A stretch of 64,000 nt of DNA, from assembly GCA_002082585.1 (NCBI GenBank), contig CP020563.1, positions 4,396,001-4,460,000 on the forward strand, written 5' to 3'. Of this stretch, positions 60,246 to 63,901 are shown piece by piece. The DNA is from Kitasatospora albolonga (GTDB lineage: Bacteria > Actinomycetota > Actinomycetes > Streptomycetales > Streptomycetaceae). The notes under the pieces are model-generated. The model was not told where the DNA came from and searched no databases. It was given only the letters and a program-made list of their open reading frames with translations. The position numbers and the translations under genes are program-made. The number at the start of each line of letters is the position of its first letter. The stretch's first letter is position 1.

Positions 60246-61312
<1,067 letters not shown>

Positions 61313-61316
<4 letters not shown>

Positions 61317-61771: not shown

Positions 61772-63253
61772 TCAGGTGCGCGTGGCGGGCGCCGGTCGCA
61801 GCGGTGCCGTCGTCTCCGCCGGTGCCTCCTCCGTACGTACGGGAATGAGCGCGGCGACCACCGCCGCCGTCAGGCCCACCCCGCAGCCGATCAGCATCGC
61901 GGTGCGGAAGCCGTTCTCGGAGGGCAGCGGGAAGCCGCCGAAGTCGGTCGTCATGCGGGCCAGGACCACGCCGATGACGGCCGCCGCGAACGACGTGCCG
62001 ATGGAGCGCATCAGGGCGTTGAAGCTGTTGGCGGAGGCGGTCTCGGACGGGGGGACCGCGCTCATGACGAGAGCGGGCATCGCCCCGTAGGCGAAGCCCA
62101 CGCCGGAGTTGCAGACCAGGGTGACCAGCAGCAGGCTCCACGGCGAGCCGGAGCCGATCAGCGGGACGGAGAGACCGTAACCGGCGGCGATCAGGAGGCT
62201 GCCGGTGGCCAGGGTGACCTTGGGGCCCTTGGCGGCGGAGAGCTTCGCGCCGAGCGGGGACATCGCCATCATCATCAGCCCGGCCGGGGCCATCCACAGG
62301 CCCATCGCCAGCATCGACCGCCCCAGGCCGTACCCCGTCGCCTCGGGGAGCTGGAGCAGCTGGGGGACGACGAGGGACTGCGCGTACATCGCGAAGCCGA
62401 CCAGGACCGAGGCGGTGTTCGTCATCAGGATCTGGGGGCGGGCGGTCACGCGGAGGTCGACCAGCGGGTCGCGCCGCCGCAGCTCCCACCGGGCCCACAC
62501 GGGGAGGAGGACCAGCGCGGCGGCGAAGAGGGTGAGCGTCGTGGGGCTGGACCAGCCCCAGTCGGCGCCCTTGGAGACGGCGAGCAGCAGGGCGATCAGC
62601 GCGGCCCCGAGGCCGATGGCCCCGACCAGGTCGAAGCGGCCCGCCGGGGCGGTGGCCGGGCGGTCGGCGGGGACCAGGGCGCGGATCAGCGCGCCGACCG
62701 CGAGGGCCAGGGCGGCGACCACCCAGAACAGCACCCGCCAGCTCGTGTTCTCCGCGATGGCGGCGGCGAACGGCAGGCCCAGGGCGCCGCCCACGCCCAT
62801 CGACGCGCTCATGACCGCGATGGACGGGCCGAGCCGCTCCGCCGGGACGACGTCCCGCAGCAGGCTGATGCCGAGCGGCACCACGCCCATGCCGAGGCCC
62901 TGGAGGCCGCGTCCGGCGATCATCGGGATCACGGACGAGGACAGGGCGCAGACCACCGAGCCGAGGACGAGCGGTACGAGGGAGACGAGCAGCATCCGCC
63001 GCTTGCCGTACAGGTCGCCGAGCCGTCCGGCGACGGGGGTGGAGACGGCGGCGGCCAGCAGGGTGGCGGTGATGACCCAGGAGGCGTTGGACGCGGAGGT
63101 GGCGAACATCGCCGGGAGCCGCGCGATCAGCGGCACCACCAGGGTCTGCGTGAGCGCGGCCACGATACCGGCGAAGGCCAGGATGGCGACGATCCCGCCG
63201 GGGCGGGCCGTGGGTGCCCCCGGGGAGGCCGGTGCGGGTGGTGGAGTCTCCAC
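61772..63253 (-). CDS. MFS transporter, 14-TM drug exporter type
   Basis: The 493-aa protein has about 14 helices, VAGRLGDLYGKRRMLLVSLV as antiporter motif A and MGVGGALGLPFAAAI as the TM5 motif. It belongs to the EmrB-like family. It is divergent from the MarR gene at 63461; the 208-bp space holds tandem CTCGGACC repeats and an array of five 18-bp repeats with palindromic cores, so that MarR protein probably represses it. The substrate is unknown. Confidence 0.9.
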   Translation of the reverse strand: METPPPAPASPGAPTARPGGIVAILAFAGIVAALTQTLVVPLIARLPAMFATSASNASWVITATLLAAAVSTPVAGRLGDLYGKRRMLLVSLVPLVLGSVVCALSSSVIPMIAGRGLQGLGMGVVPLGISLLRDVVPAERLGPSIAVMSASMGVGGALGLPFAAAIAENTSWRVLFWVVAALALAVGALIRALVPADRPATAPAGRFDLVGAIGLGAALIALLLAVSKGADWGWSSPTTLTLFAAALVLLPVWARWELRRRDPLVDLRVTARPQILMTNTASVLVGFAMYAQSLVVPQLLQLPEATGYGLGRSMLAMGLWMAPAGLMMMAMSPLGAKLSAAKGPKVTLATGSLLIAAGYGLSVPLIGSGSPWSLLLVTLVCNSGVGFAYGAMPALVMSAVPPSETASANSFNALMRSIGTSFAAAVIGVVLARMTTDFGGFPLPSENGFRTAMLIGCGVGLTAAVVAALIPVRTEEAPAETTAPLRPAPATRT

Positions 63254-63274
63254 GGGGTGTCTCTCCGTTTCTCA

Positions 63275-63332
63275 GCCCTCGGACCTCGGACCTCAGTCCT
63301 TGGCTCTCGGACCTCGGCCCTCGGACCTCGGT
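63275..63332. repeat. CTCGGACCTCGG tandem repeats
   Basis: CTCGGACCTCGG and close variants recur through this stretch, between the MFS start and the 18-bp array. The sequence is G+C rich and unlike the array. Confidence 0.7.
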
Positions 63333-63343
63333 GGGCTGTGTGG

Positions 63344-63433
63344 TGATGCGCGATGCACGGAGTGTGCAAGGTACATGGAGTATGCAAGATACATGGAATG
63401 TGCATCATGCACGGCTTATGCATCATGCATATC
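63344..63433. repeat. Five 18-bp tandem repeats with palindromic cores
   Basis: Units begin at 63344, 63362, 63380, 63398 and 63416. Units 4 and 5 contain GTGCAT-C-ATGCAC (63400-63412) and TATGCAT-C-ATGCATA (63417-63431), both perfect. The other units have TGCGCGATGCA and TGCAAGRTACA cores. The array ends 28 bp before the MarR start and is more A+T-rich than the surroundings. It is a probable multi-site operator. Confidence 0.85.
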
Positions 63434-63460
63434 CAGCGTGATATACCTGGATGCGTGGAC

Positions 63461-63901
63461 ATGCCCCTCGACCGGATCGAACGCGAGACCATGCTGCTCG
63501 GCCGGTACATGCATCTGCTCACCCCGCGCGAGGAGTGGCGGCTCGACCGCAGCGCCTACATCCTCCTCAGCCGGATCGAGGTGGAGGGCCCCATGTCCAT
63601 CAGCCAGCTCAGCGACGCCTTCGGGCTGGACGCCTCCACGCTCAACCGGCAGACCGCCGCGATGCTGCGCGCCGGGGTCGTCGAGCGCATCCCGGACCCC
63701 GACGGGGGCATCGCCCGCAAGTTCGCCATCACCGACGAGGGCGTACGCCGGCTCGACGGCGACCGCAGCCGGAACGTGGCGGGCCTGGCGAAGGTCATGG
63801 CCGACTGGACGCCCGAGGAGGCGGAGCAGCTCGCCGTCTCGCTCAGCCGTCTGAACCTCTCCATCGAGCGCCTCGACGGGCGGCCCTGGCCCCGCGACTG
63901 A
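63461..63901 (+). CDS. MarR family transcriptional regulator
   Basis: The 146-aa winged-helix protein has LLGRYMHLLTPREEWRLDRS, SISQLSDAFGLDASTLNRQ as HTH and DPDGGIARKFAITDEGVRRL as wing. ATG 63461 gives the normal family length; a GTG two codons earlier is possible. The frame stays open through the upstream 18-bp repeats, where it would read as Cys/His-rich HGVCK-type units, so a longer metal-binding form starting at 63353 cannot be excluded. It is divergent from the MFS gene and probably represses it. Confidence 0.88.
   Translation: MPLDRIERETMLLGRYMHLLTPREEWRLDRSAYILLSRIEVEGPMSISQLSDAFGLDASTLNRQTAAMLRAGVVERIPDPDGGIARKFAITDEGVRRLDGDRSRNVAGLAKVMADWTPEEAEQLAVSLSRLNLSIERLDGRPWPRD

Follow-up and report, generated by a model that had tools for sequence, protein, structure and literature searches.

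Multi-site operators of MarR-family regulators are known already, and the OhrR protein of Streptomyces coelicolor is said to have a central-plus-adjacent-site layout. SAV4189, a MarR-family protein of Streptomyces avermitilis, represses its own gene and an efflux gene, and in the parts of the report drawn on here its own promoter is overlaid by three 13-bp palindromes, with 5-nt arms and a 3-nt gap, that give several retarded bands (PMC6036246). OhrR of S. avermitilis is described, in the sections of the paper used, with two similar 13-nt sites next to each other at a divergent promoter, within a single protected region of 28 nt, where they cover the -35 region of both genes (PMC6034001). At the CtcS-ctcR locus of Streptomyces aureofaciens the MarR gene lies beside a divergent efflux gene, and the available portion of that study has the protein binding the promoter region and tetracyclines weakening the binding (PMC6905112). 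For SCO3205, a MarR-family protein of S. coelicolor, two operators in the upstream intergenic region were predicted from orthologous intergenic regions, according to the part of the article considered (PMC3737563).

Here we describe a putative operator array of five 18-bp units in the window, by which we mean the whole 64-kb stretch of DNA analyzed; it comes from an 8.03-Mb genome whose closest named relatives are Streptomyces (Table 1). The array resembles the SAV4189 operator, whose palindromes overlap putative -35 and -10 elements, in its several palindromes with a 3-nt gap. However, the three palindromes of SAV4189 fall in two protected sites 17 nt apart for which the excerpted text describes no strict periodicity, their consensus is TTGCCYKHRSCAA and not TGCA, and the efflux gene is cotranscribed rather than divergent (PMC6036246). 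OhrR of S. avermitilis shares the side-by-side sites at a divergent promoter, whereas it has two sites, an ACAATTNAATTGT box and peroxide sensing via cysteine, with no larger array described in the sections used (PMC6034001). CtcS, although comparable in gene arrangement, has two protected regions with CTTGTC half-sites, and a periodic array is not described in the available portion (PMC6905112). SCO3205 differs in its consensus TTnAAnnnTCAA and in having two separate sites, without a fixed-pitch array in the part of the article considered (PMC3737563). What distinguishes the array from these nearest published cases is its 18-bp pitch and a variable unit number, up to five-fold. In the open-licence literature, judged by title and abstract opening, we recognized no description of this motif, of periodic MarR arrays or of this gene pair. 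A periodic array with a fixed pitch and a unit number that varies across a well-sampled genus offers a natural series for measuring operator copy number against repression and cooperativity.

Table 1. Positions in the window of the array, its dyads, the neighboring genes and the probable marR promoter element
Feature	Position	Strand	Remarks
Operator array (putative)	63344..63433	.	five 18-bp units, each with a TGCA-N3-TGCA dyad; kept in relatives
Dyad 1	63347..63357	.	TGCGCGATGCA, 7/8
Dyad 2	63365..63375	.	TGCAAGGTACA, 7/8
Dyad 3	63383..63393	.	TGCAAGATACA, 7/8; close relatives have a counterpart
Dyad 4	63401..63411	.	TGCATCATGCA, perfect
Dyad 5	63419..63429	.	TGCATCATGCA, perfect; at the expected place of the marR -35 hexamer
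marR gene	63455..63901	+	conserved start GTG (VDMPLDRIE...); 148 codons plus stop
Divergent MFS transporter gene	61772..63253	-	start GTG at 63253; DHA2-like by its best match, which is below the cut-off
Probable -10 box of marR	63442..63447	+	TATACC in GTGATATACCTG; assigned by conservation

Results

A periodic array between divergent genes

The first-pass annotation of this DNA had reported five 18-bp units with TGCA-N3-TGCA-like dyads, two of them perfect, between divergent MFS and MarR genes. A script run on the sequence returned the same coordinates and unit count; the dyads follow one another at a step of exactly 18 bp, those starting at 63401 and 63419 both score 8/8, and Pfam matches of the flanking genes agree with the description. 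The longest dyad chain comprises five dyads; dinucleotide shuffling of the 160 bp that precede marR, repeated 5000 times, gave at most two, and that once. The array holds every chain of two or more dyads (7/8 or better, 18 bp apart) that the 64-kb window contains, and also all four matches, at one mismatch or fewer and with 0.01 expected, to a 17-base unit pattern that was derived from the array itself. The array also stands out in GC content, at 0.48 against 0.72 for the window.

A search of Rfam gave no match up to E 0.1 in 63000-63700, ruling out a known RNA element at the array. In the MFS leader beside it, about eight copies of a CCTCGGA-type 7-bp repeat occupy 63271-63331. The printed leaders of two close relatives, L006 and L007, do not show this repeat, and L011 and L012 have other short repeats in the MFS leader position.

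The product of the MFS gene belongs to Pfam MFS_1 (E 4.6e-47) and does not qualify for the EmrB/DHA2 drug efflux family, its 164.7 bits against TIGR00711 being below the curated cut-off of 230.2. The MarR protein is a MarR winged-helix protein by PF01047 (E 1.9e-8; 34.5 bits against a cut-off of 24.6) and also exceeds the cut-off for MarR_2 (32.5 against 27); PcaV (4fht) is the sole solved structure that its sequence matched (E 7e-4). Elsewhere in the window, about 24 GCCGAC copies at 60543-60684 encode an (Ala-Asp/His) run in an ORF (60246-61316) whose translation gives the impression of a membrane-anchored protein with C-terminal peptidoglycan-binding-like sequence.

Conservation of dyads and spacing in relatives

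The dyads and their spacing are conserved before this marR family. Our named set comprised the best 80 of 205 confirmed named loci, in which we counted dyads within 350 bp, with at least one dyad of 7/8 and neighbors of at least 6/8 at 18-bp steps. At least two dyads in 18-bp register precede marR in 66 of the 80 (three dyads in 40, two in 19 and four in 7), with one dyad in 8 and none in 6; here and below, the loci are related by descent and dyad counts across relatives are not independent. Printed flanks reveal that the "one-dyad" loci mostly have a second dyad 36 bp off, the unit between being degenerate. In 64 of 81 regions (the 80 plus the window), a pair of dyads of at least 7/8 lies exactly 18 bp apart, compared with a mean of 0.005 and a maximum of 1 in 200 shuffled sets.

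A survey of 199 genomes of the genus found a marR match at E 1e-40 or better in 86, at 106 places, and at least two dyads at 82 of these. The best 30 places, which include the window and share many genomes with the named set, divide into 24 with at least two dyads, four with one and two with none; the corresponding figures for the other 76, at 52-69 percent identity, are 58, 12 and 6. A pair of at least 7/8 at 18 bp is present at 38 of the 76, against a shuffle mean of 0.01 and a maximum of 1 in 100, whereas single dyads are weak evidence, as shuffled sequence has one scoring 7/8 or better in 12.4 of 76 regions. The recurrence of the same dyad, the same 18-bp step and the same place strongly supports the earlier suggestion of a multi-site operator. 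Palindromic sites before the regulator gene, here five dyads between marR and the MFS gene, and their conservation with that gene across species are what a MarR autoregulatory operator calls for. Two homologues of this marR are carried by 20 of the 86 genus genomes with a match, and many of the lower-identity copies have 18-bp dyad arrays of their own.

The six of the 80 named loci without dyads are the clade of L102, L110, L113 and L114, together with L084 and L115. In their HTH helix they do not differ from the array-bearing rows printed, and the helix STLNRQTAA, taken as the recognition helix, is identical in 21 printed rows. A second MarR-domain gene, in divergent orientation, lies upstream in L102, L110 and L114, so their promoters may have been taken over by another regulator. 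The four-locus clade keeps an GTGGTATAT-type box; TAGGTA-N9-TACCTA, guessed for this clade, had zero matches in 137 loci.

Association of the array with marR

Across the genus, 16 of the 199 genomes contain the strict pattern TGCAYNRTGCA-N7-TGCAYNRTGCA, each of them once, although 86 have a marR match; reversed-pattern controls gave 0. Fifteen of these places, all in relatives, adjoin a marR homologue with 49-95 percent identity, and the sixteenth is the window. The association holds even where the divergent gene encodes a P450. The array's own genome contains RTGCAYNRTGCAY at three places, of which the array accounts for two, and its reversed control at five. A two-dyad pattern allowing up to two mismatches returned eight rows there, seven in the array, with four control hits and no sign of a wider regulon, and the other register, searched as RTGCAY halves with N5 between them, had one place in the array, one elsewhere and one in the control. 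Because the array stays with marR, and because RTGCAYNRTGCAY is rare in its own genome outside the array, it looks like a local, dedicated putative operator and not a regulon-wide box.

The gene on the other side of the array is exchanged among relatives. An orthologue of the divergent MFS gene is present at 54 of the 80 named loci, a count that leaves out two 30-percent hits (L110, L114) nearly 1 kb away. At 13 named loci (L051, L056-L063, L065-L067, L069) the divergent gene is of the Sua5/YciO type, as seen for the one scanned (L057; PF01300, E 4.4e-46), and both array and marR remain. The array likewise stays at L129 and L130, whose MarR homologues are about 50 percent identical and whose divergent gene encodes a P450 (PF00067, E 3.3e-26 and 1.4e-7). 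At L052, one of the 54, the divergent MFS match begins at residue 314, which suggests a truncated gene, and a four-dyad array adjoins it.

Shape of the site

Aligning 191 units from 67 loci gives the consensus TRTGCATSATGCAYA, a palindrome of 15 bp. Units were selected by TGCA, which inflates the TGCA positions of the logo; positions -7, -6, -1, +1, +6 and +7 were outside the selection and are also dyad-symmetric. Inside any periodic array of this kind a second dyad centre, 9 bp away, arises automatically. We favor the N3 centre because the bases around it are more conserved (0.4-0.9 bits, against 0.06-0.16 around the other centre) and because the arrays stop at complete N3 dyads: at the next position an additional half-site occurs on the left in 7 of 67 loci and on the right in 0 of 67, with a background of 4.7 percent. 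Spacings of 18, 36, 54 or 72 account for 177 of the 298 pairs of dyads that score at least 7/8 and lie within 80 bp; another 107 fit the overlapping half-site register (7, 11, 25, 29, 43, 47, 61) and 14 fit neither.

Start codon and probable promoter of marR

The first-pass annotation had extended the marR frame upstream to an ATG at 63353, whereas the start conserved among relatives corresponds to the GTG at 63455 in the window. This start consists of a GTG or ATG with GAC or GAA-type codons after it. We could assign it in 79 of 81 loci (47 GTG, 32 ATG), and in 60 of the 79 a Shine-Dalgarno core lies within the 15 bases examined before it; the window is among those without one. In L079, L081, L087 and L093 the 12-bp marR start region (GTGGACAAGCCC) is duplicated, giving MDKPVDKPV-type N-termini.

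A TATA-containing GTGRTATA-type sequence lies 9-12 nt past the last dyad in 25 of the 67 loci that have at least two dyads. A search of the 45 bp following the last dyad gave no TATA in 41 others, and L106, where TATA is at offset 0, was left out of the 25. The last dyad sits at the -35 position of this -10-like box, which has no sigma-70 consensus match. In the window, a 17-nt spacer would put the marR -35 hexamer at 63419-63424, the first half of dyad 5. A sigma-70 consensus scan gave no full promoter match at the marR/MFS locus, and for this reason the probable marR -10 box is assigned by conservation. In the window, L037, L082 and L007, the start codon follows about 7 nt after the -10 box without a Shine-Dalgarno sequence, which points to a marR transcript that is probably leaderless, and L038 and others have a leader with an AAGGA-type sequence between box and start. 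On the MFS side, no conserved promoter was seen by eye in the reversed left flanks of relatives.

Discussion

In regard to function, we interpret the array as a multi-site operator for the adjacent MarR-family protein, a reading to which we assign a probability of about 0.9 on the strength of sequence comparison. One MarR dimer would bind each palindromic site, with one site per 18-bp unit, such that up to five dimers could lie side by side at an 18-bp pitch and wind round the DNA. At 10.5 bp per turn, 18 bp corresponds to 1.71 turns and would leave neighboring dimers turned by about 103 degrees, while 54 bp corresponds to 5.14 turns and would bring the fourth dimer round almost to the face occupied by the first. 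We infer packing side by side, and the fixed pitch hints at cooperativity between the dimers; the pitch could also be partly inherited through tandem duplication, and not selected. The dyad nearest marR would cover the -35 region, where bound MarR may block RNA polymerase and thereby impose negative autoregulation. The divergent MFS gene would probably be co-repressed until a ligand releases MarR, both the ligand and a substrate of the transporter being postulated here.

Alternatively, the array could be the site of a regulator other than the adjacent MarR protein, for example a global one. Such an assignment would accommodate the dyad-less loci, which keep the same recognition helix, but we consider it very unlikely: the strict two-dyad pattern stands beside this marR family alone, at 16 of 16 places in the 199 genomes, and a global regulator would be expected to have many sites in the genome, where RTGCAYNRTGCAY is outnumbered by its control. 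We regard as close to negligible the chance that an intergenic region prone to repeats has produced the array as a neutral 18-bp tandem repeat. Identity at 15 of 18 positions between units 2 and 3, a 7-bp repeat beside the array in the MFS leader and a labile unit number would all fit a neutral repeat; decay or slippage would then be expected, however, and the sequence between dyads diverges while the dyads and the 18-bp pitch persist down to 52 percent MarR identity.

A further proposal, raised in the first-pass annotation, is that MarR begins with a Cys/His-rich, metal-binding extension encoded by the array, which might or might not also serve as operator. As that annotation noted, the array is open in the marR frame, and it reads MHGVCKVHGVCKIHGMCIMHGLCIMHIQRDIPGC; the frame is open from the ATG at 63353, in 39 of 67 loci an open frame of the array runs on into marR, several close relatives (e.g., L045, L046, L047, L078, L082) share the window's array frame, and four database proteins (P0001, P0005, P0010, P0023) start inside an array or just past it. 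We nevertheless judge translation to be extremely improbable. The phase of the array relative to marR is 21/23/23 over the 67 loci, as by chance, and the array peptides of relatives fall in all three frames, unrelated and differing by frame. Even among the 18 rows of the window's clade, the start codon follows the last dyad at distances of 25-76 nt, with remainders of 0, 1 and 2 mod 3. GC3 is 19/34 in the extension, compared with 144/148 in marR and a lowest 34-codon value of 28/34 in the two flanking genes. The conserved start lies downstream of the array, with its Shine-Dalgarno core in most loci, though not in the window. Among the 120 database homologues listed of 1347 found, 115 match just 75-82 percent of the 182-aa extended query; a conserved ExExM motif close to the N-terminus, identified in 114 of the 120, is 16 residues or fewer from the start in 100 and later in 14. 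The four proteins named above are among these 14, and their extra N-terminal residues, which are translated array or leader, are taken as gene-caller mis-starts. No in-frame translation conserved as protein is found, and the idea of a metal-binding N-terminus falls to the conserved GTG/ATG start, to array-gene distances that do not run in threes and to non-coding codon use. Thus, random frame among relatives, non-coding GC3 and the conserved downstream start lead us to reject a coding array; the open frame most likely follows from 18-mers without stop codons. Stop-free operator arrays deserve attention in annotation more broadly, as gene callers can absorb such DNA into predicted proteins.

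Returning to the array as a multi-site MarR operator, its pitch is constant among relatives and its dyad number is not, with 19 parsimony changes on a 148-column marR tree in which many forks are unresolved. The five dyads of the window are the most found in the named and genus sets, and the other 17 rows of its clade have three in exact register. Units 3-5 of the window correspond to the relatives' three, and dyads 1 and 2 have no place in the register of three seen in the closest relatives. No other pair in the array is as alike as units 2 and 3, a likeness that fits tandem duplication. We offer tentatively, as an idea that is possible and on balance doubtful, that this MarR subfamily assembles as a cooperative, helically wound string of dimers on an 18-bp lattice. 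Site number, from one to five, would then act as an evolutionary dial, with units gained and lost by tandem duplication and deletion, tuning the strength of repression or the sharpness of the switch without change to the protein. One relative, L037, has an extra dyad 14 bp from its first, outside the 18-bp chain.
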